From NCBI GenBank assembly GCA_024683645.1, contig JAIKYA010000012.1:1-42597 (forward strand): DNA of 42,597 bases, written 5' to 3'. Positions 5,301 through 24,109 of the stretch are shown piece by piece. The notes beneath the pieces were generated by a model. The model was given only the letters and a program-made list of their open reading frames with translations. It was not told the origin of the DNA and made no database searches. Position 1 is the first letter of the stretch. Every line of letters starts with the position of its first letter. Position numbers and translations under genes: made by a program. The stretch is from Lachnospiraceae bacterium (lineage in GTDB: Bacteria > Bacillota > Clostridia > Lachnospirales > Lachnospiraceae).

Positions 5301-6679
5301 CAGGCTTCATTGACCACGATATTGGTGATGATACCGCCTTCCAGCCAGATAGCTTTCATGTCCTGTCCGCCGATATCAAGTATGAAACTGGGATCATCGA
5401 CATACTTTGCCGAAGCAAGAGAGTGCGCCACAGTCTCGACCACATGAGCCTCCGTACGGAACGCTTTGTTGAACAGGAACTCGCCGTAGCCTGTCGAAGC
5501 AGCCGCAAGAATATTCAGCTTTGCTCCCGCATCATTATATTTTTTATACATGCCCAGGAGCGCTTTCTTGGCAACATCCAGAGGATTACCTCCGTTCGAG
5601 GAATACCAGGAATCGATGATCTCCTCGTTCTCATTCATTAACACGAGCTTGGTCGTAGTCGATCCCGAATCTATACCCAGATAGGCATTTACAGTCTCTC
5701 CTGCCCCGGGCCTGTAATCCGGCGCTTCTTTTTTCGGATGACGCTTTTTGAAATCTTCGTATTCTTCCTTTGTTTCAAAATATAACTGTCCTACTTCCGT
5801 TTCAGCCTCATCTACACCGCTTAAGGAAGATACCATCTCGATAAGTTCGGAAACGGAATAATCTTTTGAATCTTCATGAAGTTCTTCTATACTTAAACCT
5901 GCGCCGTAAGCCACCATCATTTCGGGATGCTGCGGCACGATAACATCCTTGTCTTCGAGCTCCAGTCTATCCTTAAACACCTCGCAAAGCCTGGGATGGA
6001 AAGTAAGCGGCCCCCCTTCAAATGCGACGGGCGGCTTTATATCCAGTCCCTGCGAAAGTCCGCCTATGGTCTGCTTTGCTATGGCATGATAGCTCGATAA
6101 TGCTATATCATTTTTCTTGACGCCCTGATTCAAAAGCGCCTGTATATCTGTCTTGGCAAACACACCGCAGCGCCCGGAGATATCATAAACACTCTCTCCT
6201 TCATCAGCCATCTTTCTCATCTCGGAAGCATCGACACCGAGTACCGTAGCAACTTCATCGATGAAAGCCCCGGTACCTCCGGCACAGCTGCCGTTCATAC
6301 GCATATCAAAAACCTGGGATTCGCCCTTCTCATCATCCCTGAAAAAGATGATCTTGGCATCCTGTCCTCCAAGTTCTATTGCTGTTCCTATCTTGTGATA
6401 CTCTTTTCTGAGAGCCAGTGAATTGGCCACGACTTCCTGGGTAAAAGGAAGCCCCAGCCTGTCCGCGATGATCCTCGCTCCCGAACCGGTAAGACAGATC
6501 TTTGCCTTCTTACCTTCCAGCTCTTCCTTTACACAGTCCAAAAGACCCGTTATAGAATCTCTCTGTTTTGCGAAATGTCTTATATACTTATAAAATATCA
6601 GTTCCCCGTCTTTCAGCAGCGCTATCTTGGTCGTGGTGGAACCTACATCTATACCTATCCTGTACACTGTTTCTTCCAT
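2306..6679 (-). CDS. Fused 2-hydroxyacyl-CoA dehydratase activase / dehydratase-like protein (1457 aa)
   Basis: A giant protein joining modules that are separate in classical Clostridium systems (HgdC activator and HgdAB dehydratase). Residues about 1-285 and 330-600 are two BadF/BadG/HgdC-type ASKHA ATPase domains: GIDVGSTTTK and GIDSGSTTTK phosphate loops, ELGGQDAK and DIGGQDMK, and in each two cysteines where HgdC holds its shared [4Fe-4S] cluster (Cys132 in NGSCAGGTG and Cys171 in GRCGVFAK; NEACSSGCG and SRCTVF). A Cys patch (CPYCTNHC, about 665) leads into a DUF2229/HgdB-like half with TECFPAKL, SFGCGHDA and DICFPAQI. In the known enzymes, ATP hydrolysis drives one electron into the dehydratase to make a ketyl radical. 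Whether this fusion dehydrates an acyl-CoA is unknown. Only a distant SD (GGAGG, 14 bases) precedes the ATG. Confidence 0.88.
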   Translation of the reverse strand: MEETVYRIGIDVGSTTTKIALLKDGELIFYKYIRHFAKQRDSITGLLDCVKEELEGKKAKICLTGSGARIIADRLGLPFTQEVVANSLALRKEYHKIGTAIELGGQDAKIIFFRDDEKGESQVFDMRMNGSCAGGTGAFIDEVATVLGVDASEMRKMADEGESVYDISGRCGVFAKTDIQALLNQGVKKNDIALSSYHAIAKQTIGGLSQGLDIKPPVAFEGGPLTFHPRLCEVFKDRLELEDKDVIVPQHPEMMVAYGAGLSIEELHEDSKDYSVSELIEMVSSLSGVDEAETEVGQLYFETKEEYEDFKKRHPKKEAPDYRPGAGETVNAYLGIDSGSTTTKLVLMNENEEIIDSWYSSNGGNPLDVAKKALLGMYKKYNDAGAKLNILAAASTGYGEFLFNKAFRTEAHVVETVAHSLASAKYVDDPSFILDIGGQDMKAIWLEGGIITNIVVNEACSSGCGSFLENFAHNLQIETKEIAERAFASENPAKLGSRCTVFMNSSIITEQRNGKQPNDIMAGLCRSIIENVFTKVIRVPNIDSLGKKIVVQGGTFQNDAVLRAMEQYVDCEVIRAPYAGLMGAIGSALRAKEKSQEADFVKSFISYEELEAFSYTQQANSPCPYCTNHCNRAILTFSTGDSWVTNNRCEKGEVIGDPKDKDTIRKIKELNEKKDKPANLYEIRKNLQMKDYPYETFCEDRGITIGIPRVLNFWEGMPFWSTFFKSLGFGFKTTPVSNRKIYENGIHAVPSDTECFPAKLVHGHIRELVKSGVDRIFMPEIVVMPSENKEETSFSRCALVKGYPIVIKNSDNPFTKYGVPFDSPYFYWYTEEDREKQITEYMYDTYDIDRDICLKAVRQSAEIQRSYDRELKAEGRRVIEDVSAKNSFAVVLAGRPYHNDPLINHELPELLVSMGVPVLTADSLPDLPEVELRNSRIDIVNNFHARMLGSSILAAKNNNLEYIQIVSFGCGHDAVLSDEIVRMMKEISNKAPLILKVDESDAQGPLRIRVRSFIETIQRKRNMKLQRKVRELSDPYPVKFTKKEVKEKIVLVPNSSHAFCQVMSAAFKGQKLKTVPLDVGREEAIRLGKRYTHNDICFPAQIVIGEILAELKSGKYDTNDVSVAMAKYLGCCRLPHYATILRKALDDAGFAHVAIVTNDDVDLHDMHPGFKMNAKSLLRVSMCLPIIDTLEEVLRKIRPYELIKGSADAAFEKGMDMLVKGLEKFGILGAINGFKKALKCLTEVKYDDSVKKPTVLIVGEYLLNFHPGANHDIEKYLEDNGFEIIEAKMTDVIQKSYFCQHKQIEEFGVKRDKATKFWSNVANIFFTYAHKAIDHIARHVKLHDKAVLMEDLGKVSDDVIHHTFDTGEGILIPAEIMHYASHGCKNFVILQPFGCLPNHVIGRGVCKKLKEMYPDIELLPLDYDPDVSFANIENRLQMLIMNQQQVSVRAKEGVGAR

Positions 6680-12752: not shown

Positions 12753-14825
12753 TTACAGTCTGCTCATCCAGACTTCAGCCAGATCGGTCCATTTACCGGC
12801 ATCCCTGATCAGGCTCTTGTCTATTGGCATTACGGGAGGTTCCTGTTCTCCGGAGAACTGGGCTTCCAGTTCAGCCTTCCTCTGCTCGCTGACATTCACA
12901 CCCTTGCCTTCACGTACCGCACCGACTGCACGCCATACCTGTTCCATGGTATACTCGGGACCTGACCAGCCTCTGAAGAACTTTTCGTCGGCTGTGGACA
13001 TTCCGTGCCAGCCTGCAGGGAATACGTAATGTGCGAAGGGTATCTTCTTTTCCCTCAGTGCCATTGCAAAGAGGTAGCTGTTTTCCACGGGAACGACATC
13101 GTCACCGACTGTCTGCCAGATAAAGCAGGGCGGAGTATTGTCCTTAACCTGTTTTTCAAGAGAGAAGTATTCCAGTTCCTCTGCGGAAGGTTCGCGTCCC
13201 AGAAGTGCTTCTATGGAATACTGGTGGGTATATTTCTTATCCGTAGTGATCACGGGATATGCGAGTATCACGCCGTCCGGACGGTTAGAGAACTTTGCAT
13301 ATTCCGGATTTTTATCTTCAACGTCATCAAAATGTACGGCAAGTGATCCGCACACATGCGCTGCTGCCGAGAAACCGCACACTATAAGCTTTCTGCTGCC
13401 AAGTCCGTACTTGTCGGCATTCTTTCTGATGTAGCGCACTGCTCTTGAGATATCCCAAAGAGGCTGCTTTTTCAAAGGCACCGACATGGTGATATCCGTA
13501 GTATAAGTGAGGACAAAGACATTCATGCCGCGGTCAAAAAAGTTTCTCGCCGTCAGCTCACCCTCATGAGCACATACCATACAGTAACCGCCGCCCGGAA
13601 GTATCAGCATGCAGTCATGCTCTTCTTCGTCGTTGTGCAGATAGGCAAACATCCCCGGCACAAAACCGTATGCAGCGGGATAATCATATTCACCTTCTTC
13701 CCAGATCTTTACGGGCCTGAATCTCATGTTATTCTCGGGCATGCCCACTGGTTTAAAGCTTTCTTCGGGATAATCCGCCTTCCATTCATCTATCTCCTCT
13801 TTCGGGACTGTCAGCTCCATCACCGAATAATACGCAGGCTTTGCCTCGCATTTATCATCAAAAAGAAGCGGATAGCTTTTCTCGCGTCTGAAACCTGTCA
13901 GCCAGGAATCACCGTCACGCAGATTCCATAAAGTCACGCATGTAACATTTGCCTTCCCGCTTTTTTTCGCATCCAAGAGTATACCGAAGAATTTAGCATA
14001 ACGCTCAGCGAGTGCCTTCTGCGACTCCTCCGAAGGATCGTTATTGTGGATATCCATTTCCGTTACATGTATCTCAAGCCCTGTTGCCCCATACATTTCA
14101 AGTGCGGTCTTATATACTTCGGGATCAGGATAGTCCATGACCAGATGTGACTGCAGTCCCATACCGTCCACAAGCTTTTCATCCATGAGCGGTTTTAATA
14201 CTTCCTTAAGTATGAAGTCCCTCTTCCATTCCTGCGAAGTCTCGTAATCGTTATAGAAAAGCGACACGCCGGGAGCAGCATATTTCCTTGCGATCCTGAA
14301 TGCCTGCAGCACAAAATCCTCACCTACAGCCTTATACCAGGGTGACTTTTTTCTCCATCCTCCCTCATCCACGGCTTCATTCACAACATCCCAGGCATAG
14401 ATTATCCCGGGATATTCCGTCTGTACAAAACCGAGCACTCCGCTTATATAGCTTTCGAGTCTCTTAAGCATGGTCTCCCTGTCAGCTCTCGGACGCATCT
14501 CGTTGTATTCCTCGTGAAAGAACCACTTTGGAGTCTGGTTGTGCCATGCAAGTGTATGTCCGCGCATGGAGATACCGTTTGCTTTTGCAAATTCAAGATA
14601 CTGCCTGGCTCTCTCAAAAGTAAGCGCCGGTGCCAGATCATATTTCTCAGGATCTTCCTTGCATTTTTCCATATCAAGGAAGAACTGCGGCTTCATATCA
14701 TTTTCACAGGTAAAACTGTTGAACTGAGCCTTCAGCAGTTCCATATGTGCCGGTGTATGAAGATTAAACAGCGATATCGCCGCACCTATCTTAAAATCCT
14801 TTTCAAATGCCGTTTTCAGTACCAT
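12753..14825 (-). CDS. Intracellular GH10 endo-beta-xylanase fused to an alpha/beta-hydrolase esterase
   Basis: A 690-residue two-enzyme protein. Residues about 1-340 form a GH10 barrel with RGHTLAWHNQTP, the acid/base Glu in WDVVNEAVDEGG (about 150) and the nucleophile Glu in EIHVTEMDIHNN (about 256). Residues about 370-640 form an esterase of the acetyl-xylan or feruloyl esterase type: LPGGGYCMVCAHEGE (oxyanion hole), nucleophile Ser in CGFSAAAHVCG, Asp in GDDVVPVENS and His in GWHGMS. No signal peptide is present, so it should act on short substituted xylo-oligosaccharides in the cytosol. ATG 14825 was chosen because GAGGAGG lies six bases upstream; an earlier ATG (14840) overlaps the preceding stop but lacks an SD. 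It sits at the end of the cobalamin unit with no room for a separate intergenic promoter. Confidence 0.93.
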   Translation of the reverse strand: MVLKTAFEKDFKIGAAISLFNLHTPAHMELLKAQFNSFTCENDMKPQFFLDMEKCKEDPEKYDLAPALTFERARQYLEFAKANGISMRGHTLAWHNQTPKWFFHEEYNEMRPRADRETMLKRLESYISGVLGFVQTEYPGIIYAWDVVNEAVDEGGWRKKSPWYKAVGEDFVLQAFRIARKYAAPGVSLFYNDYETSQEWKRDFILKEVLKPLMDEKLVDGMGLQSHLVMDYPDPEVYKTALEMYGATGLEIHVTEMDIHNNDPSEESQKALAERYAKFFGILLDAKKSGKANVTCVTLWNLRDGDSWLTGFRREKSYPLLFDDKCEAKPAYYSVMELTVPKEEIDEWKADYPEESFKPVGMPENNMRFRPVKIWEEGEYDYPAAYGFVPGMFAYLHNDEEEHDCMLILPGGGYCMVCAHEGELTARNFFDRGMNVFVLTYTTDITMSVPLKKQPLWDISRAVRYIRKNADKYGLGSRKLIVCGFSAAAHVCGSLAVHFDDVEDKNPEYAKFSNRPDGVILAYPVITTDKKYTHQYSIEALLGREPSAEELEYFSLEKQVKDNTPPCFIWQTVGDDVVPVENSYLFAMALREKKIPFAHYVFPAGWHGMSTADEKFFRGWSGPEYTMEQVWRAVGAVREGKGVNVSEQRKAELEAQFSGEQEPPVMPIDKSLIRDAGKWTDLAEVWMSRL

Positions 14826-14836
14826 GTAATACCTCC

Positions 14837-15100
14837 TCATTTATCCGTGTGGGTTTTAGAACGATTCTGTTCCTTAAGCATATCCATTATCCTGTCGTAG
14901 TTTTCAGCTCTGTGCGGAAAAACACAGTTAAGACAGCTCTTTATCTTTCTGTCTCCCTTTTCGATGATCTCAAAGTTTCCCGGACAGTTTAAGTTATACA
15001 GCGGACAATAACAGAACAGACAGTTAAGATCTTCCTCTGTTTTATGACAGGGATAATACTCACATTCCCTGTTGGCGAAAAAACGACTGGAATTCTGCAA
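14837..15100 (-). CDS. Cysteine-rich small protein of cobalamin clusters
   Basis: An 87-residue protein with eight cysteines, in CEYYPCHK, CLFCYCPLYNLNCPG and SCLNCVFPH. It resembles the Cys-rich small-domain family (PF04071) often found in corrinoid gene clusters; its role is unknown, and metal or cluster binding is a guess from the cysteine pattern. The start is TTG at 15100, preceded by GGGGGAAG; the nearby ATG at 15114 is out of frame and the family's usual N-terminus (FFANRECEYYPC) begins right after this TTG. It lies 92 bases after cobQ, and that gap shows no convincing promoter. Its stop overlaps a possible early ATG of the xylanase gene. Confidence 0.8.
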   Translation of the reverse strand: MQNSSRFFANRECEYYPCHKTEEDLNCLFCYCPLYNLNCPGNFEIIEKGDRKIKSCLNCVFPHRAENYDRIMDMLKEQNRSKTHTDK

Positions 15101-15192: not shown

Positions 15193-16035
15193 TTATCTAA
15201 TGAGGCTGAGTATGCTTTCGATCTGGAGGTTTTCTTCCATAGCATCGGCAAGCAGTTCAAACTGCTCATTTCTGTATGCGGCATCACTCGCACTTCTTTC
15301 AGTCTTTGGATTAACCGTATCCTTCAGACTGTCTTCCTCCTCTATATCTACCTTCAGATATGGCAGTACTCCGTAAACAGGCACTCCTGTCAGTTCCTCT
15401 ATCTGCGTGATCCCCGGGAGCAGGAGTTTTATATCACCGCGGAACTTATTGATGATCACTCCCTTTACACGTGCCCTTTCCTGTTCTTCAAGAAGTGCGA
15501 GAGTTCCGTATATCTGTGCAAATACTCCTCCCCTGTCGATATCCGCAGCGAGCAGCACGTCACAGTCTGCCATCTCCGCCATGCCCATATTGACGATATC
15601 GTTCTGCTTCAGGTTGATCTCGGCCGGACTGCCGGCACCCTCAATGACGATGGCATCAAAGCTTTCTTCCAGCTCATGCAGAGCCTTAAGTATAAGCGGT
15701 TTCATTTCTGTCTTTTTCTTAAAGTATTCCATGGCTCGCATCTTACCGCGGCTCTCTCCGAGAACGATAAGTTCGCTGCACATATCTCCGCAGGGTTTGA
15801 GCAGTATTGGATTCATCTGCGGCAGGGGAGTGCATCCGGCTGCTTCTGCCTGTATCGCCTGTGCACGCGAAAACTGCAGACCGTCTGCCGTCACATGCGC
15901 TATATTTGACATATTCTGGGATTTGAACGGCGCTGCGGCGATCCCCCTGCGTTTCAGCACACGGAGCAGTCCCGTTGTCAGCAGGCTCTTGCCAACCGAT
16001 GACATGGTTCCCTGTATCATTAGCTTACGTGCCAT
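15193..16035 (-). CDS. cobQ: Short CobQ-like cobyric acid synthase lacking the glutaminase domain
   Basis: CobQ/CbiP amidates four side chains of adenosylcobyrinic acid a,c-diamide using ATP and glutamine. This 280-residue protein has a complete ATPase half: P-loop GTMSSVGKS (9-17), APFKSQNMSN, SRAQAIQAEAAG, MNPILLKPCGD, IEGAGSPAEINL, DIDRGGVFAQIYGT and LPYLKVDIEEEDSL. Full-length enzymes (about 490-510 residues) then carry a class I amidotransferase domain with GxCxGxQ and a His motif; here only about 20 linker residues follow before a tail (NEQFELLADAMEENL) that resembles the usual CobQ C-terminus. No amidotransferase is encoded in the gap downstream. The ATG (AAGGAG upstream) overlaps cobD by 11 bases. 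It may use free ammonia or a glutaminase encoded elsewhere, or be inactive. Confidence 0.85.
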   Translation of the reverse strand: MARKLMIQGTMSSVGKSLLTTGLLRVLKRRGIAAAPFKSQNMSNIAHVTADGLQFSRAQAIQAEAAGCTPLPQMNPILLKPCGDMCSELIVLGESRGKMRAMEYFKKKTEMKPLILKALHELEESFDAIVIEGAGSPAEINLKQNDIVNMGMAEMADCDVLLAADIDRGGVFAQIYGTLALLEEQERARVKGVIINKFRGDIKLLLPGITQIEELTGVPVYGVLPYLKVDIEEEDSLKDTVNPKTERSASDAAYRNEQFELLADAMEENLQIESILSLIR

Positions 16036-17077
16036 TTACTATCTCCTTTATCTCCGATATAAGCTGCATATTATCTTCGTGCTTCCTTACTGCGATCCTG
16101 CAGCTGTACTGTCCCCTTATACCCCTGTGATCACTGCAGTCTCTTATCAGTATACCTTTATCGATAAGAGGAACATAAAGTTCCACCGGGCTTTCAAAAA
16201 ATATAAAATCAGCTTCCGAAGGGAATACCCTCATCCCCAATTCTTTAAGTTTAACGGAAAGATATTCTCTCTCCTGCCCTATCAGGCTTAAGCTATCTTC
16301 CAGATATTCCTTTTCTTTTAAAGCCTGCACCCCCGCCACCTGCGCGGGTACGGAGATATTCCATTCGGGCAGCTGCATGGCGATATTATCCGCAAGCTCT
16401 CTGTCTGAGCATAGCGCATAGCCGAGCCGCAGTCCCGCAAAAGCGTAGAGTTTCGTAAAAGCTTTAAGCGACACTATACCTGCGCCGCTCTTAAAATATT
16501 CCGTATAGCTTTTTGCATCCCCGATAAAACCCAGGAATACTTCATCTGCCAGCAGCAGGCTCCCGTTCTCTGCACAGGACGAGACAGTCTCTTTCATGAT
16601 GCTTTCGTCAGGACATATACCCACCGGATTTGACGGATTTCCGATCACATAAACCGCAGGTTTAAGACGTCGTATCATTTCCGCCGTATCATACTCCGGA
16701 AGATAATCCTCAGCTGCATCCGCATAATGCAGCTCACAGCCTGCTGCCAGAAATGCTCTTTCATAACCGCCGAAAAACGGGCACTGCAAAAGCACCCTCC
16801 TTCCGGCATATGCGTGTGCCACAGCCATTATCAGCTCGGATGCACCTGCTCCCAAAACGATCTGCCCTGCGGCAATAACTTCTTCTTCCGAAATTGCAGT
16901 TAGCAACTCCCGTGAAGTGATATCCGGATAGGCAGCAAACGAATCAATACTATCTGCAAGCACACGCGCTACTCCTTCAGGCAGTCCCAGGGGATTTACG
17001 TTCACGGAAAAATCCAGACGGATCTTCTTCCCCCCGGAATCTCCGCCGTGTTTATATACCCGCGTGTTCACATGCAT
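16025..17077 (-). CDS. cobD: L-threonine-O-3-phosphate decarboxylase
   Basis: PLP enzyme that makes (R)-1-amino-2-propanol phosphate, the linker between corrin ring and nucleotide loop. The 350-residue protein starts with the CobD-type KHGGDSGGKKIRLDFSVNVNPLG, has GNPSNPVGI, an ADEVFLGF segment and the Schiff-base lysine in FTKLYAFAGLRLGYAL. It lies in a cobalamin operon next to cbiB, which consumes its product; this separates it from the related histidinol-phosphate aminotransferases. It overlaps cbiB by ten bases upstream and cobQ by 11 downstream. The SD is weak, in keeping with translational coupling. The name follows Salmonella usage. Confidence 0.92.
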   Translation of the reverse strand: MHVNTRVYKHGGDSGGKKIRLDFSVNVNPLGLPEGVARVLADSIDSFAAYPDITSRELLTAISEEEVIAAGQIVLGAGASELIMAVAHAYAGRRVLLQCPFFGGYERAFLAAGCELHYADAAEDYLPEYDTAEMIRRLKPAVYVIGNPSNPVGICPDESIMKETVSSCAENGSLLLADEVFLGFIGDAKSYTEYFKSGAGIVSLKAFTKLYAFAGLRLGYALCSDRELADNIAMQLPEWNISVPAQVAGVQALKEKEYLEDSLSLIGQEREYLSVKLKELGMRVFPSEADFIFFESPVELYVPLIDKGILIRDCSDHRGIRGQYSCRIAVRKHEDNMQLISEIKEIVNGT

Positions 17078-18054
17078 ACGGTGATCAGCATGATCACCCC
17101 TCCGCGGACCAGCAGTACAGAAATAAGCCCCAGCGCAGACACAGCCAGCATCAGCTTATTCGCACGTGCGATATCCTCTCTGTCTATCTCCTTTTTCTCC
17201 TCTCCTATCCACGGCTTTTCCTTAAGCCTTCCGAAATAATACGCAGGTCCTGCCAGCTTAAGCCCGAGCGCTCCAGCAAATGCACTCTCCGTCTGGGCTG
17301 AATTGGGACTCTCATGTTTACGTCTGTCCCGTTTCCATATCATGTATGCAGCTGCTCCGTCCATTCCTTTCATAAGATGTGACGCAGCTATCGTAAGCAG
17401 TGCCGCAAGCCTGGCCGGTATATAATTTGCGATATCGTCAAGCTTTGCGGCAGCTGTACCGAAATAAAGATACTTCTCGTTTTTATATGCGATCATCGAA
17501 TCCATTGTATTTACAGCCTTGTAAAGCATGCCTCCCACCGGTCCGCCTATCATCAGCCAGAACAGCGGAGCGATCTCACCGTCGTTGGTACTCTCAGCAA
17601 CAGTTTCCACTGCGGCACGGAGTACAGCGTCTTCATTCAGTTTTTCCGTATCCCTTCCGACTATTCGGGATACCGCCCTCCGGCCGCCGTTTAAGCCTTC
17701 ATCATTCAGTGCTTTAGCGACAGCCATACTCTCTTTTTTCAGATCTCCTGCTGCCAGACAGCAGTCGGAAAGGATCACCGCGACTAATACAGCAAAATAT
17801 TCATTTATCCGGAAGGAGATATAAAGGATCCCGAAAGCGGCTGCACCTGTGACCAGCAGGACTGCGATGCAGAGAACTGCGCCTTTTAACCGCTCTGTTC
17901 GCGGGCTGTCATCTTTTCTGCGCAGCAGTCTTTCAAACAGAGTGATAAGTTTTCCCATAAAACATACAGGATGAAAACGTCCCAGCGGATCAGCGAAAAC
18001 AAGATCGAGCAGAAAAGCCGCCGCAGGAACGATAAGAAAATACCAGCTTTTCAT
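17068..18054 (-). CDS. cbiB: Adenosylcobinamide-phosphate synthase
   Basis: Integral membrane protein that amidates adenosylcobyric acid with aminopropanol phosphate. Family features of this 328-residue protein are the N-terminal LLDLVFADPLGRFHPV, MGKLITLFE, the VGRDTEKL motif, AVETVAESTNDGEIAPLFW, the MDSMIAYKNEKYLYFG segment and ESPNSAQTESAFAGALG. Hydrophobic helices lie at both ends and in the middle. The start at 18054 was preferred to an upstream ATG (18078) because it forms an ATGA overlap with the preceding cobU-like gene, the pattern used throughout this operon, and begins directly before the first helix. The identification is firm. Confidence 0.94.
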   Translation of the reverse strand: MKSWYFLIVPAAAFLLDLVFADPLGRFHPVCFMGKLITLFERLLRRKDDSPRTERLKGAVLCIAVLLVTGAAAFGILYISFRINEYFAVLVAVILSDCCLAAGDLKKESMAVAKALNDEGLNGGRRAVSRIVGRDTEKLNEDAVLRAAVETVAESTNDGEIAPLFWLMIGGPVGGMLYKAVNTMDSMIAYKNEKYLYFGTAAAKLDDIANYIPARLAALLTIAASHLMKGMDGAAAYMIWKRDRRKHESPNSAQTESAFAGALGLKLAGPAYYFGRLKEKPWIGEEKKEIDREDIARANKLMLAVSALGLISVLLVRGGVIMLITVCM

Positions 18055-18419
18055 TTGATCCTTATCCCTATCCCGCATACAACGCGGTACACTTCATCAG
18101 CCAGTTCCGCAGCCCTGCAAAGGCAGCGTCCTACGGCCTCACGATATTGCTCCTTTTCCTTTTCCATGGGTATCACCCCGGCACCCACCTCATCACAGAT
18201 CAGGATGATATCCGGCAGCTGCTCATACAGCCGTTCCAGTTCTCTGACCGGATCCATCCCCTGCTTAAGCTGCTTTTGTATACGCAGATGATACGCTGCC
18301 AGAGCCTTTTTTCCATCAGGCAGATCCTCGGGACCAGCGATCTCATCCTCGCTGATATTCTCACTTTTCATTACAAGACGGCATTTACCCTGCCATGCTC
18401 CGCCCATATAGAGTTTCAT
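18051..18419 (-). CDS. Short CobU-family paralogue (kinase-type motifs, no guanylylation His)
   Basis: A 122-residue protein related to CobU, the bifunctional adenosylcobinamide kinase/guanylyltransferase. The C-terminal half matches CobU well: ICDEVGAGVIP (residues 74-84), a QYREAVGR helix, LADEVYRVVCGIGIRIK at the end. The N-terminal P-loop is altered (GGAWQGKC, Cys13 for Ser/Thr) and the region with the guanylylated His (HRxxRPxxW in known enzymes) is missing, making it about 60 residues shorter than CobU. A second CobU (19231-19752) in the same operon keeps that His but has lost the VGxGIVP motif. It starts 44 bases after cobS with GGAG seven bases upstream. Whether it is an enzyme, a partner of the other CobU, or vestigial is open. 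Confidence 0.8.
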   Translation of the reverse strand: MKLYMGGAWQGKCRLVMKSENISEDEIAGPEDLPDGKKALAAYHLRIQKQLKQGMDPVRELERLYEQLPDIILICDEVGAGVIPMEKEKEQYREAVGRCLCRAAELADEVYRVVCGIGIRIK

Positions 18420-18463: not shown

Positions 18464-19234
18464 TTATCCCATAATACTCCGCACTGCCATTGCAGCTACG
18501 GATAACAGTTCCGACATGCAGATATACCAGCCTGCCGTATCTCCGTTGATACCGCCGAAACTCCTATCTGTCATACGACAGTAATACACTGCGAGTATCA
18601 GCTGCAGTGCCAGCTGCAGCAATGCATACACAGGATCAAGATACACAGCTGCCGCGACCGCTGCGATAAGGATCACAAGCGGTATGAATACACGTCCGCG
18701 TCCTCCCTGTTTTGCACTGTAGAGCATTCCCTCATTTTTCGCTGAAGGTAAAAGAAGAGAACTCACCGCACAGCTGCTCCGTGAAAACACAAAGACAGCC
18801 GCAAACAGCAGCAGACGCGTTATACCTCCATCTCCGTCCGCAATTACCGTAAGCCCCGCTGCCCAAAGCAGCATCAGATATATCAGCAGACGTATCACTG
18901 CAAAAGCACCTATATGAGGATCTTTGAGTATCTTTAATCTTTCTTCCTTCCCCCGCCAGGAATGCTTCGCATCAGCCGTATCCATCAGTCCGTCCACATG
19001 GATCCCACCGGTAAAAAGTATCGGCAATGCACACAGCAGTAATACCGTCGCCATATCCGGAAGTAAGAGGTAAGTGCAGAGATAAAACAAAGCTGCTTCT
19101 ATCGCACCAAGCACTGCCCCCACAAGAGGAAGCGCACAGAGCATATAGCGCTCCTCACCGCCCTTCAGTTTAAATGAAGGCAGAGGGATCACACTGTAAG
19201 TTGAAAATGTCAGTAATATAATACGAAATATCAT
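18464..19234 (-). CDS. cobS: Adenosylcobinamide-GDP ribazoletransferase (cobalamin synthase)
   Basis: Membrane enzyme joining adenosylcobinamide-GDP to alpha-ribazole (or its phosphate) in the last assembly step. The 256-residue protein is very hydrophobic and carries the family markers TFSTYSVIPLP near the N-terminus, GGIHVDGLMDTADA with the acidic metal-binding residues, RLKILKDPHIGAFAV, and DRSFGGINGDTAGW near the C-terminus. The start at 19234 makes an ATGA overlap with the cobU stop; an in-frame ATG six codons upstream is less likely. Partner enzymes CobT and CobU are adjacent. The identification is firm. Confidence 0.94.
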   Translation of the reverse strand: MIFRIILLTFSTYSVIPLPSFKLKGGEERYMLCALPLVGAVLGAIEAALFYLCTYLLLPDMATVLLLCALPILFTGGIHVDGLMDTADAKHSWRGKEERLKILKDPHIGAFAVIRLLIYLMLLWAAGLTVIADGDGGITRLLLFAAVFVFSRSSCAVSSLLLPSAKNEGMLYSAKQGGRGRVFIPLVILIAAVAAAVYLDPVYALLQLALQLILAVYYCRMTDRSFGGINGDTAGWYICMSELLSVAAMAVRSIMG

Positions 19235-19752
19235 ACTCCACCCTTTATCCACAGGGGAATGCCTGCAGATACCTCCGCCACTGCGTCCGCATCTTCCGCA
19301 AGCATGCAGTTTAAATGTCCCAGTTCCCTGCGATAGCTTTCCGTCATGCTGTCATATTCCTCAGCATCCGAAAAGACATCGCCGCTGACCAGCACCAGAA
19401 AACGGCTCCGGCTTTTAAGTGCACGTATATCCTCACGTATCTTTTCCGCAACCCGTTCCACATAAGTCTCTCCAAACTGTTCATTGGCAAGCAGATTGGT
19501 GATGCATTCCAACAGTACATATTCCCTGCACTGCTGCAGGACCTTCCTTATATCTCTCGCACACTCCACGGTCTCAAAACCTTTTCCGGCTCTCAGCGCG
19601 CGATGCCTCTCAATACGCTTCTCTGCAGACAAGGTATTTCTCTCCATCGTAGCCAGGTAGCTCAGCCTGTGTCCTTCCCCGGCCCGCATTATCAGTTCTT
19701 CCGCGAAAGCAGATTTCCCGCTCGCTGCTCCTCCGACCACCAGTACCATCAT
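19231..19752 (-). CDS. cobU: Adenosylcobinamide kinase/guanylyltransferase CobU
   Basis: A 173-residue CobU: P-loop VGGAASGKSAFAEEL (residues 6-20), the segment RIERHRALR with His50 at the position guanylylated in Salmonella CobU, FETVE, LLECITNLLANEQFG and the end VSAGIPLWIKG. CobU phosphorylates adenosylcobinamide and transfers GMP from GTP. The motif normally reading NEVGxGIVP is changed to SGDVFSDAEEY, which is unusual for the family. The short paralogue at 18051-18419 retains that motif, so the two may share the work. Its ATG overlaps the cobT stop (ATGA) and its stop overlaps the cobS start. Confidence 0.9.
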   Translation of the reverse strand: MMVLVVGGAASGKSAFAEELIMRAGEGHRLSYLATMERNTLSAEKRIERHRALRAGKGFETVECARDIRKVLQQCREYVLLECITNLLANEQFGETYVERVAEKIREDIRALKSRSRFLVLVSGDVFSDAEEYDSMTESYRRELGHLNCMLAEDADAVAEVSAGIPLWIKGGV

Positions 19753-20840
19753 AACCTGTGATAAGCCTCCATACTGAGTTCGGAAAAATCCGCAGCCTCT
19801 TCATATACACTCAGAACGTTACGCAAAAGTGCATATCCCATCACTGCTCCGCTTCCTTCACCAAGCGCGAGTCCTGCATGAATTGGCGCCTCAAGGCCAA
19901 GCGCCTTAAGCAGTCCTTCTGTCGCCGCTTCTTTTCCCTGATGCGATGCCAGCAGCCACGGGCTGCATTCGGGAAAAATACGTACTGCTGCCAGCGCCGC
20001 CGCCAGTGTTATCACACCATCCAGTATCAGCGGTATGCCTTCCAGTGCTGCTCCAATACACAACCCGCTGATCGCTGCTATCTCATATCCGCCCACACAG
20101 CTAAGCAGCCTGAAAGTCTCTTCCGCTGAAGTGACCGCGGTGTCAAACCCATGCAGTTTCAATGCCCTGCGTATCGTCAGTATCTTGCGCTCCAGTCCTT
20201 CATCACTTAAGCCTGCACCACGTCCGCACATAGCGGCAGCATCACGTCCCAGCATCGCCGAAGCAAGTGCGGCACTGCTGCAGGTATTTCCTATCCCCAT
20301 TTCGCCCGAAAGCAGTATGCGTATTCCTTTCTCTGAAGCCAGAGAAGCTTCTTCCATACCGCAGCGTATCGCAGTCAGACATTCCTCCTGCGTCATGGCA
20401 CTCTCTTTAGCAAAATTGCGGGTTCCCTTCCTTATACAGCGGCCGGTCAGGGCTTCTTCCTCCACATCACAGGCAAGTCCGACATTTACGATCCTCAGTT
20501 CCACCGACTCTGCCTCAGCCATACGACAGGCAGAAGATCGTCCTCTGGCCATGCTCCCGGCTACAAGCGCGCTCACTTCATGTCCGCTCTGGCTCACGCC
20601 CTCCTCCACAACACCGTGATCCGCACAGAAGATCACCAGCCGCGCCGGTGAGATGCAAAGCTTTGCAGTCCCCTCTGCCGCTGCCAGTCTCACCAGCTGT
20701 TCCTCAAAGATGCCCAGACTGTCCAGCGGCTTGGCGATCGTATCCAGTCTGCGCTTTGCCTCTGCAGCCGCAGTCAGATCGGGTTTTCTGATCCTGTTTT
20801 TCAGACCGGATGTAAACGCCTGAAGTTCCTCCCTGCTCAT
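19749..20840 (-). CDS. cobT: Nicotinate-nucleotide-dimethylbenzimidazole phosphoribosyltransferase
   Basis: CobT transfers ribose phosphate from nicotinate mononucleotide to the lower-ligand base, giving alpha-ribazole phosphate. The 363-residue protein has the family segments LDSLGIFEEQLVRLAA, VIFCADHGVVEEGVSQSG, LLSGEMGIGNTCSSAALASA, CGRGAGLSDEGL, LILDGVITLAAAL, LASHQGKEAA and, near the C-terminus, LALGEGSGAVMGYAL, which holds the catalytic Glu. The ATG at 20840 overlaps the btuD stop. CobT accepts benzimidazoles and, in anaerobes, other bases, so the lower ligand is not determined. No odd features. Confidence 0.95.
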   Translation of the reverse strand: MSREELQAFTSGLKNRIRKPDLTAAAEAKRRLDTIAKPLDSLGIFEEQLVRLAAAEGTAKLCISPARLVIFCADHGVVEEGVSQSGHEVSALVAGSMARGRSSACRMAEAESVELRIVNVGLACDVEEEALTGRCIRKGTRNFAKESAMTQEECLTAIRCGMEEASLASEKGIRILLSGEMGIGNTCSSAALASAMLGRDAAAMCGRGAGLSDEGLERKILTIRRALKLHGFDTAVTSAEETFRLLSCVGGYEIAAISGLCIGAALEGIPLILDGVITLAAALAAVRIFPECSPWLLASHQGKEAATEGLLKALGLEAPIHAGLALGEGSGAVMGYALLRNVLSVYEEAADFSELSMEAYHRL

Positions 20841-21610
20841 CCCACTGCCATCTCCTTAAGATACTCACGTACATTAAAATCATAGGCCTTCTCAAGTGCC
20901 CCGCTCTCAAGTACTTCTCTTTTCGGTCCCTGAGCTGTTATTCGTCCGTCTTTTAATAATATCAGATGATCGGAAAGCTTAAGGGCAAGGGGTATGTCAT
21001 GATATACGCCTATCAGGGTATGATGTTTTTGTCTGCTCCATTCCAGCAGATACTCACTCATTCCGGCCACCACCTTCAGATCCAGATGATTGGTCGGCTC
21101 ATCAAGAAGGAGTATCGGAGCATCCTGTGCAAAGGTTCTTGCCAGAAATACTCTCTGCAGCTCGCCCCCCGACAGGCTGCTGAGCTGACGTTTTGCCAGC
21201 GCCGTCACTCCGGTCCGGCGCATGCACTCCTCCGCGATCTCCCTGTCATGCCTGCTGCAGGCCGTAAAACCTCCGCTCAGATGGATATAACGCCCCATCA
21301 GTACTGTTTCCGCCACGGTATAAGAAAAATAGATCTGTGAAAGCTGGCAGAGCAGAGCTGCTGCAGACGCTATCTCCCTGCGCGTCATTTCCCCAACCGG
21401 CCTGCCCATGAGACGCAGCTCACCGCTAAACGGAAGCATGCCTGTCATTGCTTTCAGCAAAGTGCTCTTGCCGCTTCCGTTCTCTCCGAGTATGGCCACA
21501 CGGCTGCCCTCTTCGATCGAAATATCCAGACCACGCAGTATCTCCGTATCCGTATGAAGGCGGCGCGCATCATAAGCTGCATGAAGTTGTGAGCATTCTA
21601 CTGCTTTCAT
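20837..21610 (-). CDS. btuD: Corrinoid ABC transporter ATP-binding protein BtuD
   Basis: A 257-residue cytosolic ATPase of the FecCD/BtuCD import family. Walker A (LGENGSGKSTLLKAM), signature LSGGELQRVFLAR, Walker B ILLLDEPTNHLDL and the switch His (GVYHDIPLAL) are intact. ATG 21610 is the real start: it has GGGGAGG upstream and overlaps the permease stop as ATGA; the open frame further upstream lies inside the permease gene and is not protein-coding. Ferric-siderophore and cobalamin importers share this fold; the B12 riboswitch and cob genes make corrinoid the likely substrate. Confidence 0.93.
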   Translation of the reverse strand: MKAVECSQLHAAYDARRLHTDTEILRGLDISIEEGSRVAILGENGSGKSTLLKAMTGMLPFSGELRLMGRPVGEMTRREIASAAALLCQLSQIYFSYTVAETVLMGRYIHLSGGFTACSRHDREIAEECMRRTGVTALAKRQLSSLSGGELQRVFLARTFAQDAPILLLDEPTNHLDLKVVAGMSEYLLEWSRQKHHTLIGVYHDIPLALKLSDHLILLKDGRITAQGPKREVLESGALEKAYDFNVREYLKEMAVG

Positions 21611-22635
21611 CGTTTCCTCCCCGTTCCGAAATATACCCACAGAAAGAATGGTGCACCCAGCAGGGCCGTCACCGCTCCCACCGGGATTTCCTGCGGCGAA
21701 AGTATGGTACGCGATATCAGATCGGCCAGTGCCATGAAACTGCCTCCGAGAAGTACACTCATGGGAAGTACGATACGGTGTGATGAACCGAAGATCCTGC
21801 GCACCGCATGCGGAGCCGCCAGATCGATAAACCCTATCACACCTGTAAAACACACTGCTGCTCCGGTAAGCACGGAAGACAGGATCAGAAGTATCCTGCG
21901 GCTTTTTTTTGTATCCACTCCGACAGCTTCAGCCGTGTTCTCTCCGAAACTCATCAGATCCAGTTCACGGTGAAAAGCACAGGCGATGATCACGCCGGCC
22001 ACACATATGATCAAAAGTATACCGGCGTGTTCCCAGCGGCGTCCCGCAAAAGAACCCATCTGCCAGAGTATTAGTCTCTGCATGTGTCTAGAAAAAGCCG
22101 CAGATAAAAGAGTCAGGATAGCGTTCACAAAAAGCGAAAATATCATTCCGAACAGGATGATGGTATGGCTCCGCAGATTACCGTCCAGCCGTGCAGAAAA
22201 TGCTATCACCAGAAAGACTGTCGCCAGACCGAACACAAAACCCGAGGCCGGCAGCAGGAAATAATTCAGCGCAGGTATGGATATCTCAAATACTATCACC
22301 AATGCTGCGCCGAGGGATGCACCGGAAGATACTCCCAGGGTATATGAAGATGCAAGCGGATTCTGCAACAGCGACTGCATGACAGCACCGCTGAGAGAAA
22401 GCAGTGCCCCCGTGATAAAAGCACAGCAGGCACGCGGAAAGCGTATCTCCCACAGGATCGAAACCTTACCCGGATTTATAAAAGCAGGCATTTCTCTTCC
22501 GGATAGTTTGGAAAAAATGATCGTCACGATCTCCCGCGGGGAAATGGAGACACTGCCCACTCCCACCGCCAGGATCATGGCGATCACAGAAAAAACTATT
22601 GCCGTTGTAAGCTTTAAGCCCCGCCGCCCTTTCAT
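21607..22635 (-). CDS. btuC: Corrinoid ABC transporter permease BtuC
   Basis: A 342-residue polytopic membrane protein of the FecCD family with about ten hydrophobic helices. Family segments include EIRFPRACCAFITGALLSLSGAVMQSLLQNPLASSYTLGVSSGASLGAA, given here by its ends (EIRFPR at about 63 and SSGASLGAA at about 103), GRRWEHA, LDLMSFGENTAEAVGVD, FTGVIGFIDLAAPHAVR and LADLISRTILSPQEIPVGAVTALLGAPFFLWV toward the C-terminus. It forms the channel for the substrate delivered by the btuF-like lipoprotein. It overlaps btuF and btuD by ATGA on both sides. Confidence 0.93.
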   Translation of the reverse strand: MKGRRGLKLTTAIVFSVIAMILAVGVGSVSISPREIVTIIFSKLSGREMPAFINPGKVSILWEIRFPRACCAFITGALLSLSGAVMQSLLQNPLASSYTLGVSSGASLGAALVIVFEISIPALNYFLLPASGFVFGLATVFLVIAFSARLDGNLRSHTIILFGMIFSLFVNAILTLLSAAFSRHMQRLILWQMGSFAGRRWEHAGILLIICVAGVIIACAFHRELDLMSFGENTAEAVGVDTKKSRRILLILSSVLTGAAVCFTGVIGFIDLAAPHAVRRIFGSSHRIVLPMSVLLGGSFMALADLISRTILSPQEIPVGAVTALLGAPFFLWVYFGTGRKR

Positions 22636-23714
22636 GCTGCGGGACGCAGCTCTTCTGCATCCTTAAAGTATTCGGGATAGATATCCTCTGCCATATCGAT
22701 CAGCGCATCTATCACATGATGATTGGGCTGGTTTACCTGATCGGCATTAAGCTGATATACTGCACCGTCTTTGATGGCTTTTACATTCTCCCAGCCGGGC
22801 ATGGTCAGCAGTACATTTATAACATCAGGCGTATACATATCTGCAGTAAGGATAACCTGGGGATCCGCACCGACTGCTGCTTCTTCTGTCAGTGCAGGCC
22901 ACTGCGCCTCCTGATCTGCTGCGATATTGACTGCACCGATGAGTTCCATCATCTCATTGATATAGGTCCCCGGACCTGCTGTATATATTGTGGGATAATC
23001 AGCAGAAGGTGTAAAGAGTTCAAAGAGCACCGTCTTTTTTTCTTCCTCGGGAATGGTCGCAGCTATGGCTGCGAGCTCATCAAGAGCAGCCTGCATATCA
23101 TCGGCAAGCTTCTGACCTGCAGCCTCATTTCCTACACACTGTCCTATAAATACAAGATCCTCTTCTATAGCTTTCAGAGATACACTGCTTGGTATATCGG
23201 CAACACAGATTCCTGCATCACGTACGGATGAGAATGCATCCACACCGTCTTTCGAACTCATACCGGATGTAAATATGAGATCCGGTGCGAGGGCTACCAG
23301 CTGTTCCTGATCCGGAGCCATCATGTCCATGTAAAGTACATCTGCACCAAGCTCACTGCCGTATGAAGCCTGGGTGTTGGTGTCTGCGCAGACGATTTTG
23401 TCTGCATAACCCATATCGATCAGTACTCTTGAGATCGAAGGAGCCATGGAAACAATGCTGTTTACCTCGGCAGGTACTACGATATCATTACCGCTGCGAT
23501 CCTTCATCGCTGTTCCGGTACTTTCAGCTTCTGTTACTTCAGCTGTCTCTTCAACGGGTTCCTCCACGGTCTCTTCCTCTACTTCGGTAGCAGGTTCCGT
23601 AACCGCCTCCACAGGTGCTTCTGCCACAGGCGCTTCAGGCTCCTGTCCGCAGCCCGCGAGCAGTGCGATCGTTGTCATCGCTCCCGCGATCATTGTCAGA
23701 ATTCTCTTTTTCAT
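22632..23714 (-). CDS. btuF: Corrinoid-binding lipoprotein, BtuF-like
   Basis: A 360-residue substrate-binding protein. A lipoprotein signal ends in the lipobox LLAGC (Cys22). An acidic, low-complexity linker rich in Pro, Glu, Val and Thr (about 24-75) tethers the binding domain, which starts at DRSGNDIVVPAEVNSIVSMAP and has two lobes with VALAPDLIFTSG and VILTADMYTPDVI. This is the cobalamin/ferric-siderophore class III binding fold. ATG 23714 was chosen because the signal peptide begins there with AGGGAGG upstream; the longer open frame runs into the riboswitch leader. Control by the B12 riboswitch (23965-24074) argues for corrinoid as ligand; the fold alone would also allow an iron chelate. 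Confidence 0.92.
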   Translation of the reverse strand: MKKRILTMIAGAMTTIALLAGCGQEPEAPVAEAPVEAVTEPATEVEEETVEEPVEETAEVTEAESTGTAMKDRSGNDIVVPAEVNSIVSMAPSISRVLIDMGYADKIVCADTNTQASYGSELGADVLYMDMMAPDQEQLVALAPDLIFTSGMSSKDGVDAFSSVRDAGICVADIPSSVSLKAIEEDLVFIGQCVGNEAAGQKLADDMQAALDELAAIAATIPEEEKKTVLFELFTPSADYPTIYTAGPGTYINEMMELIGAVNIAADQEAQWPALTEEAAVGADPQVILTADMYTPDVINVLLTMPGWENVKAIKDGAVYQLNADQVNQPNHHVIDALIDMAEDIYPEYFKDAEELRPAA

Positions 23715-23737
23715 TTTTTTATTCCTCCCTTTGTAAA

Positions 23738-23768
23738 TGATAATAAAAGCATTCCGCTTGCGGAACGC
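23738..23768 (-). terminator. Hairpin with T-tract before btuF, candidate riboswitch terminator
   Basis: On the minus strand GCGTTCCGC pairs with GCGGAATGC (23768-23749) around a two-base loop, followed by TTTTATTAT. It lies about 25 bases before the btuF SD, where a riboswitch-controlled terminator would be expected. One G-T pair lies in the stem. Confidence 0.55.
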
Positions 23769-23836
23769 TTGCGCCAAGCGCGGTTGCCGCAGGCAACATC
23801 TACCTTTCGCGCGAGTGCGCATCCCGCCCGGAGGGC

Positions 23837-23883
23837 TTTTTTGTTTTATGGGAATTCCTCCGGAATTTCCATAAAACAAAAAA
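23837..23883. repeat. 47-bp near-perfect palindrome in the B12 leader
   Basis: Two 22-base arms (23837-23858 and 23862-23883) are inverted copies with one mismatch around a three-base loop. Each arm ends outward in six T (on the strand leaving the element's outer hairpin), and each is flanked by a short GC hairpin: GCCC-GGA-GGGC on the left and CCGC-TTTC-GCGG on the right. Read from either side it looks like a hairpin followed by a T-run, so it may be a bidirectional terminator or a REP-like element inside the leader. Confidence 0.85.
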
Positions 23884-23964
23884 CCGCTTTCGCGGCACAC
23901 AAAAGGAGAGCCGGCGATCCGACCCTTCGGCACTCTTCTCTGACTCGGAAAAGTTTGTGTGCCA

Positions 23965-24074
23965 GTGTACAGGCTTTAGACCCGGCTATAACGGTAGCGG
24001 CACTGTCCGGGAGTTTCACCCGGTTCCCATTTAACAAGCCCCGGAGCCTTTCGGCCCTGGCTCCACCTGTGCAC
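23965..24074 (-). promoter_or_regulatory. Cobalamin riboswitch aptamer
   Basis: The minus strand has the conserved B12 elements: GGGAACCGGGTGAAACTCCC (24028-24009), the B12 box GACAGTGCCGCTACCGT (24007-23991) and AGCCGGGTCTAAAGCCTGT. A closing stem pairs GTGCACAGG (24074-24066) with CCTGTACAC (23973-23965) with one mismatch. Bound cobalamin is expected to lower expression of the uptake and assembly operon. The predicted transcript start (24074) coincides with the first base of the closing stem. About 250 bases of further leader separate the aptamer from btuF. Confidence 0.9.
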
Positions 24075-24080
24075 CGCGCA

Positions 24081-24109
24081 AATATAGCATAAAGAAAGAC
24101 CCCTGTCAA
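24081..24109 (-). promoter_or_regulatory. Sigma-A promoter of the cobalamin operon
   Basis: Minus strand TTGACA (24109-24104), a 17-base spacer and TATATT (24086-24081), near consensus. The -35 lies in the terminator hairpin of the upstream HD-GYP gene. Confidence 0.85.

Follow-up and report, generated by a model that had tools for sequence, protein, structure and literature searches.

A B12 gene set ending in a short cobQ

The window, by which we mean the whole stretch of DNA analysed (42,597 nucleotides from a Lachnospiraceae bacterium, contig JAIKYA010000012.1, assembly GCA_024683645.1), carries a B12 gene set that runs in one direction on the minus strand. It is headed by a cobalamin riboswitch (23955–24085; RF00174, with 31.5 bits, a score equal to the gathering threshold), followed by genes for a BtuF-like binding protein (22632–23933) and a BtuC-like permease (21607–22635), both assigned by sequence reading and 77% and 84% identical, respectively, to genes of the same-genus relative G657, the permease gene at the same place. 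An ABC-transporter ATPase (20837–21853), for which none of the best 25 models passes its cut-off, is called BtuD by context. The BtuF-like and BtuD coordinates are those of the open reading frames (ORFs) as listed, and the true starts probably lie further in. CobT (19749–20840; family models), CobU (19231–19752; Pfam) and CobS (18464–19252; Pfam) come next, and then a short second CobU-like protein of 122 aa (18051–18419), which matches only positions 103–168 of 168 in CobU and is likewise present in the loci of genus and family relatives. CbiB (17068–18078; family models) and a CobD-type threonine-phosphate decarboxylase of the aminotransferase fold (16025–17077; TIGR01140, 225.2 bits, below the cut-off of 290.55) stand before cobQ, whose start is overlapped by the cobD gene by 11 bases. 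CobD, CobU and CobS of the window all fall below their NCBIfam cut-offs; CobU and CobS are over those of Pfam.

The last gene of the set, cobQ (15193–16035), is an ORF of 280 aa from ATG to stop. Its ATPase (synthetase) domain occupies residues 1–236 (15328–16035) and includes, at residues 9–17 (15985–16011, placed by alignment), what we take to be the P-loop. We observed that both NCBIfam models of the full-length enzyme pass their cut-offs, yet match through their first half only: NF001989 scored 369.2 bits (cut-off 273), with residues 4–240 on model positions 2–239 of 480, and TIGR00313 scored 314.4 bits (cut-off 309.9), with residues 5–238 on positions 1–235 of 477. Pfam matched CbiA/AAA_26 and, at E ≤ 0.001, no GATase_3. 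Aligned with full-length CobQs, the protein follows the ATPase domain to about residue 236, passes through a short linker where the GATase domain is missing (residues 237–250; 15286–15327), and resumes as the CobQ end, a C-terminal helix tail (residues 251–280; 15196–15285), with about 220 residues gone between. The nucleophile motif CGGxQ is present in 144 of 145 full-length rows of the alignment, the remaining one reading CAGYQ, and in 0 of 20 short rows.

Is the tail truly that of CobQ? The last 45 residues score 28.3 bits against an HMM made from the C-terminal 60 residues of 142 full-length CobQs. As controls, 878 of 2000 shuffles scored at all, with a best of 10.0 bits, and 136 of 337 C-termini of neighbouring ORFs scored, with a best of 4.0 bits. 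An unrelated tail is ruled out by 28.3 bits against at most 10.0 in the shuffles. The tails of 20 short forms score from 11.5 to 49.8 bits, the lowest, that of G440, barely over the best shuffle. In an AlphaFold model of the short CobQ (pLDDT 90.0, pTM 0.91), the tail is predicted to form helices 252–269 and 272–279, in a block with pLDDT 91–97. A sequence search found no solved structure of a CobQ ATPase domain. An extra C-terminal helix common to CobB, CobQ and GatD is described in the available part of PMC5871853.

These results confirm that the ORF is a CobQ/CbiP with the ATPase domain and the usual C-terminal helix, in which the GATase domain is absent. They bear out the first-pass annotation of the locus, which had read the protein as CobQ through the whole ATPase half, its tail as the normal CobQ end, and the whole as an internal domain loss inside an intact operon (the gene order is common to G657), with no glutaminase directly downstream. 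The next gene (12753–14840) encodes a xylanase-like domain fused to an esterase-like domain, the GH10 assignment being a sequence reading.

The source genome (G000) is a metagenome-assembled genome (MAG) of 3.11 Mb in 203 contigs, 91.44% complete with 5.75% contamination, so each absence in it alone is soft. It has one TP_methylase match, in a frame of 293 aa, and the genome search found no CbiA-type GATase_3 protein; it thus shows no sign of corrin-ring synthesis and, by its gene content, looks like a B12 salvager. In G657, whose listed completeness is 100%, a short CobQ also of 280 aa shares 72% identity with that of the window, its gene standing after btuF, btuC, cobT, cobU, cobS, cobU2, cbiB and cobD as in the window (btuD was not scored). 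G657 also has one TP_methylase match, and GATase_3 is found there only in a HisH-sized protein. Directly after its short cobQ (L247:11056–12180) lies a gene in which a histidine-phosphatase (CobC-like) domain is fused to a CobA/BtuR domain (His_Phos_1-CobA); unlike G657, the window has no gene of this type after cobQ.

Distribution and repeated origin of the short form

The first-pass annotation had proposed that the same short form be sought in related genomes, and it recurs in G657 and 20 others beyond the window genome. GATase-less CobQ was found in 22 genomes: G000, G657, G175, G579, G396, G320, G534, G635, G549, G513, G433, G277, G440, G537, G377, G606 and six named genomes (G250–G255). 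The latter were found among the 80 best loci in named genomes, with short forms of 280–288 residues from the aligned start in a Tissierellaceae genome, Anaerosalibacter bizertensis, Treponema putidum, Tissierella sp. P1, a Clostridiaceae MAG and Tissierella pigra. In the class sample, 118 of 391 genomes had a CobQ match at E ≤ 1e-95, 13 of which (G000 included) are frames of 279–297 aa aligned through the tail, and G579, with 272 aa and a wider deletion, is a fourteenth short form; at this threshold the count is a lower bound, as weaker short forms may be missing, and two frames of 391 and 401 aa (G337, G371) were left out.

Closer to the window, 29 of 35 genomes in the genus sample have a CobQ match, and beyond the two short forms these are open frames of 459–824 aa, G652 and G672, where the match is partial, being the exceptions. 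TP_methylase matches number 5 in G651, 4 in G668 and 4 in G658, the nearest full-length sisters. Since these sisters have more TP_methylases, the GATase loss is derived within the genus and accompanies the loss of corrin synthesis. The first-pass annotation had weighed a full-length gene in relatives against its own reading; such genes do occur in most of the genus, which marks the loss as derived without making it any less real. Similarly, genus g348 contains short (283 aa) and full (505–538 aa) genes at the same operon place.

CobQ matches occur in 155 of the 250 genomes of the family sample, with frame lengths taken among the matches listed (G010, G167, G180, G214 and G246 lie outside these, and G180 has 502 aa in the class sample). 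Full length was first judged by frame length in the genus, family and class samples, a sign that can mislead: the CobQ within the 514-aa frame of G175 is GATase-less. In that frame (L257:5534–7078), an ATP:corrinoid adenosyltransferase (CobA/CobO/BtuR) domain is joined to the ATPase domain and tail of CobQ, and there is no GATase.

Other arrangements were noted along the way. A full-length CobQ frame in L033 continues from about position 6001 onward to about 736 aa, and its end, in our reading, presumably resembles CbiC/CobH. Just before the short cobQ of Tissierella-type genomes stands a xylose-isomerase-like TIM barrel (L187:9846–10610, L070:5215–5979, L090:5217–5981; its family, AP_endonuc_2, was scanned in L187 only), which we suppose is possibly CbiR-like. 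In G606, a DUF71/Diphthami_syn_2 protein (L198:8324–8986) directly follows the short cobQ; DUF71 is predicted to act in B12 salvage, according to the available part of PMC3541065.

For a tree of 74 ATPase domains, 21 from short and 53 from full-length CobQs, we masked the four residues that follow KSQNM; G534 (L189), whose frame starts too late, and six frames open at the locus end, including that of G048, were left out of the trees and of the column counts given below. The tree has seven changes between short and full, of which the starred branches force at least four, and 0% of 200 bootstrap trees, from a bootstrap that had not settled, have a single change. Some of the seven changes sit on open forks, for example those of G175, G579 and the long-branched G606. 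A single origin of all short forms is thus rejected, and it appears that different bacteria have lost the GATase domain on several occasions. The window CobQ pairs with that of G657 (100/99), and next to the two stand three full-length genus members and one named Lachnospiraceae MAG (99/94); eleven short forms (the Tissierella types, Treponema, and families f34 and f48) form one clade (100/99). Placement of the window CobQ in the Tissierella clade, with which it shares KSQNMS, is rejected by the tree. The short CobQ of Treponema putidum, a spirochaete (L063:5992–6855), is nested among Clostridia-class short forms, which suggests horizontal transfer.

Nitrogen donor, substrate and fate of the short enzyme

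By TP_methylase counts, 13 of the 22 short-form genomes resemble de novo makers (5–7 matches) and nine, G000 included, resemble salvagers (1–2). No full-length CobQ was seen in the 13 de novo-type genomes, so the short form would have to make the cobyric acid there, if cobamide is made. All 13 have a CbiA-sized GATase_3 protein of 429–465 aa, which is their one strong GATase_3 match (in the comparison genomes, CbiA is assigned from a GATase_3 match together with protein size and gene position).

Is the keeping of CobQ by a salvager peculiar to the short form? Among the 155 CobQ-bearing genomes of the family sample, 12 have at most two TP_methylase matches. Two of these (G000, G175) are GATase-less and the other ten have long frames; all nine examined (G170 lies outside the GATase_3 search) have CobQ with GATase_3, six without a CbiA-sized GATase_3 protein, and full-length CobQ is kept in the salvage-type genomes without CbiA G068, G069, G114, G166, G207 and G236. 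Because full-length CobQ is also found in salvagers, its retention is not special to the short form and needs no new function. GATase-less CobQ was seen in 2 of the 12 low-TP_methylase genomes against 0 of the 143 with more (Fisher p 0.0055), the latter count being provisional, as it was made by frame length, with four frames outside those listed, G048 at a contig end, and fusions possible. Rodionov et al. 2019 define an Acbr class of 43 genomes with CbiP-CbiB-CobU-CobS-CobC-CobT-CobD-BtuR and without CbiA, which is read as salvaging cobyrinate diamide, such variants being read as salvage of cobyrinate diamide and other precursors (PMC6593275, available text). A salvage role of this kind fits the short CobQ here.

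Which molecule, then, supplies the nitrogen? The search for a glutaminase covered GATase_3 and, in G000 and G657, PF00117. The only GATase_3 matches in G000 are two proteins that we take to be HisH-like and DJ-1-like, and in all eight salvage-type short-form genomes searched (the nine minus G579) there was no CobQ-type GATase_3 partner beyond HisH-sized, DJ-1-like or weak partial matches. PF00117 matched six proteins in G000 (GuaA, PyrG, CarA, MetA, TrpG and, presumably, HisH) and five in G657 (GuaA, PyrG, CarA, TrpG and, by size, HisH). All are housekeeping enzymes, and the orphan class I amidotransferase that the first-pass annotation had thought worth seeking did not appear in either genome. 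A GatD-like partner is likewise rejected, there being no separate GATase_3 partner in G000 (91.44% complete), G657 (100%) or the other short-form salvagers searched. The absence of a partner in the salvagers tested makes a dedicated glutaminase in trans unlikely and leaves free ammonia as the simplest donor. Thus, of the three explanations first offered, namely ammonia, a MurT/GatD-like glutaminase in trans, and a changed role, the first is favoured and the second has lost ground.

We lean, with modest confidence, towards the short CobQ being a cobyric acid synthase that amidates the side-chain carboxylates of a corrinoid with free ammonia. Like CobQ and dethiobiotin synthetase, it would use ATP to phosphorylate the carboxylate, which NH3 in solution would then attack. 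In G000, the substrate would be a scavenged, incompletely amidated corrinoid, for example cobyrinic acid a,c-diamide, because this genome shows neither a CbiA with GATase nor a corrin-ring methyltransferase. BtuFCD would take up the corrinoid, if it imports cobyrinate diamide, and the product, cobyric acid, would be passed to CbiB. MurT with a GatD lacking the catalytic Cys still amidates with NH3 at pH 8.5, and neither MurT nor GatD amidates independently, whatever the nitrogen donor (PMC3266927, available part). Since MurT and GatD do not work independently, CobQ would have to tolerate full loss of the GATase, and the analogy counts against ammonia use in that partner loss is not always tolerated. 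A glutaminase on loan from CbiA, which may still operate in the 13 de novo-type genomes, counts against it as well.

How has the synthetase itself changed? We compared 104 ATPase-domain columns that are at least 90% conserved in 145 full-length rows across seven short lineages. Six columns (A43, L44, N45, S46, G56 and Q88) are changed in five or six of the seven lineages, and 62 of the 104 are changed in none. When changes were shuffled among columns within lineages, the mean was 0.055 such columns and six never occurred in 5000, and seven random full-length rows gave no such column in 500 draws; the test is a guide, as the lineages were drawn up with the tree already in view and substitution rates vary between columns. 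Residues 43–57 of the window CobQ (15865–15909) form a patch that is nearly invariant in full-length CobQ, and here it reads S43, N44, I45, A46 and S56 in place of A, L, N, S and G. L44, N45, S46, G56 and Q88 are invariant in all 145 full-length rows. A43 is S in five of these, of which two are sister to the Tissierella clade and two to the g348 short pair, so the change at A43 may precede the domain loss; the short form of G579 keeps A43. Segment 43–46 follows a lysine that is presumably equivalent to a substrate lysine of dethiobiotin synthetase. The changed patch could reflect altered substrate binding rather than lost GATase contact, and the repeated changes may be part of tolerating GATase loss. 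More tentatively, GATase-less CobQ may be a distinct enzyme type that arose several times, in which GATase loss is accompanied by a change at 43–46, 56 and 88 that fits a formerly glutamine-channelling synthetase for the use of free ammonia or for another task, for example, in salvagers, restoring amides on corrinoids that are damaged or only partly amidated.

The same columns speak for a changed function, to which we give a lower but appreciable chance. The corrinoid carboxylate would still be phosphorylated, and the nucleophile or the substrate would differ (another amine, or re-amidation of damaged cobamides in salvagers), or the enzyme would act jointly with CbiB. Retention of the short form in nine genomes without sign of corrin-ring synthesis speaks for it, as does the position of short cobQ directly before a cbiB-type gene in many short-form loci, though not in the window. 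On the other hand, the same patch is altered in de novo-type genomes, where the ordinary cobyric acid step is needed, and the family's salvage-type genomes without CbiA keep a full-length CobQ too.

We consider it improbable that a glutaminase acts in trans, whether this were CbiA, for the de novo genomes, or, for the salvagers, a housekeeping GATase, HisH for instance. A CbiA-sized GATase_3 protein is indeed encoded near the short CobQ in several genomes, but none was found in the eight salvage-type genomes searched, and the PF00117 proteins of G000 and G657 all have housekeeping identities.

Slighter still is the probability that the short gene is a non-functional relic heading for loss after de novo synthesis was lost. 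In its favour, the genome is of the salvage type and several short forms depart from the DIDRGG motif (DINPGG in G657, DIDKGG in G433 and G440, DIHRGG in G606), which may be decay and counts against an intact enzyme in those members. However, the dN/dS of short cobQ is about 0.10 between G277 and G433 and 0.09 between G320 and G534, both pairs of salvage-type genomes. Between G000 and G657, where dS is saturated for cobQ, its dN of 0.219 is the second lowest of eight genes compared; six of the seven others lie at 0.244–0.444, and BtuC is lower, at 0.126. Most ATP-site residues are kept: G9, T10, S12, G15, K16, E132–P137, D146, N149, G169 and G170 in 21 of 21 short rows, and each position of the EGAGSPAEINL stretch in 19–21 of 21. 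Fresquet and colleagues reportedly studied a D146 mutant of CbiP. Short forms also persist in separate lineages, and the short genes are, by these rates, under purifying selection and apparently kept in working order.

An assembly or sequencing error has a negligible chance despite the 5.75% contamination of the MAG, since G657 carries a matching gene in form, length and position, named isolates such as Treponema putidum and Tissierella pigra have short forms built alike, and the correlated substitutions of the short protein are not the pattern of read errors, which makes the sequencing deletion considered in the first-pass annotation unlikely.

Comparison with known systems

Amidotransferases are a textbook case of two coupled active sites joined by an ammonia channel. 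The apparent repeated loss of the glutaminase, with both kinds of gene in one genus, offers a natural experiment on the residues that coupling needs. Surveys that score CbiP by its ATPase half would count short-form genomes as glutamine-dependent, since the short CobQ of the window passes both TIGR00313 and NF001989, and the keeping of CobQ by salvagers suggests that incompletely amidated corrinoids are exchanged. In open-licence papers, with most subscription papers outside this scope, we found no description of a CobQ without glutaminase.

CobQ/CbiP (EC 6.3.5.10; NF001989, TIGR00313) is glutamine-dependent and amidates the b, d, e and g side chains of cobyrinic acid a,c-diamide. The short form shares its ATPase domain, C-terminal helix and operon place, but lacks GATase_3 with the catalytic Cys and His and is changed at 43–46, 56 and 88. 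The Acbr class resembles the window genome in having CbiP (here short), CbiB, CobU, CobS, CobT, CobD and a B12 transporter, with no CbiA and no corrin-ring genes, although the available text of its description (PMC6593275) makes no mention of a CbiP without GATase. MurT/GatD, a ligase with a CobQ-type glutaminase, also has a synthetase with no glutaminase on the same chain; however, no GatD-like partner was found for the short CobQ, and MurT is a Mur ligase rather than a CobQ ATPase. The CobQ ATPase domain is said to have been linked to dethiobiotin synthetase by Galperin and Grishin in 2000. Dethiobiotin synthetase (BioD) is the nearest solved fold to the short-CobQ model (1dbs, E 6.1e-11) and, although it is 16% identical over the aligned part and acts on a different substrate, it is, like the short CobQ, an ATP-dependent carboxylate-activating enzyme without a GATase.
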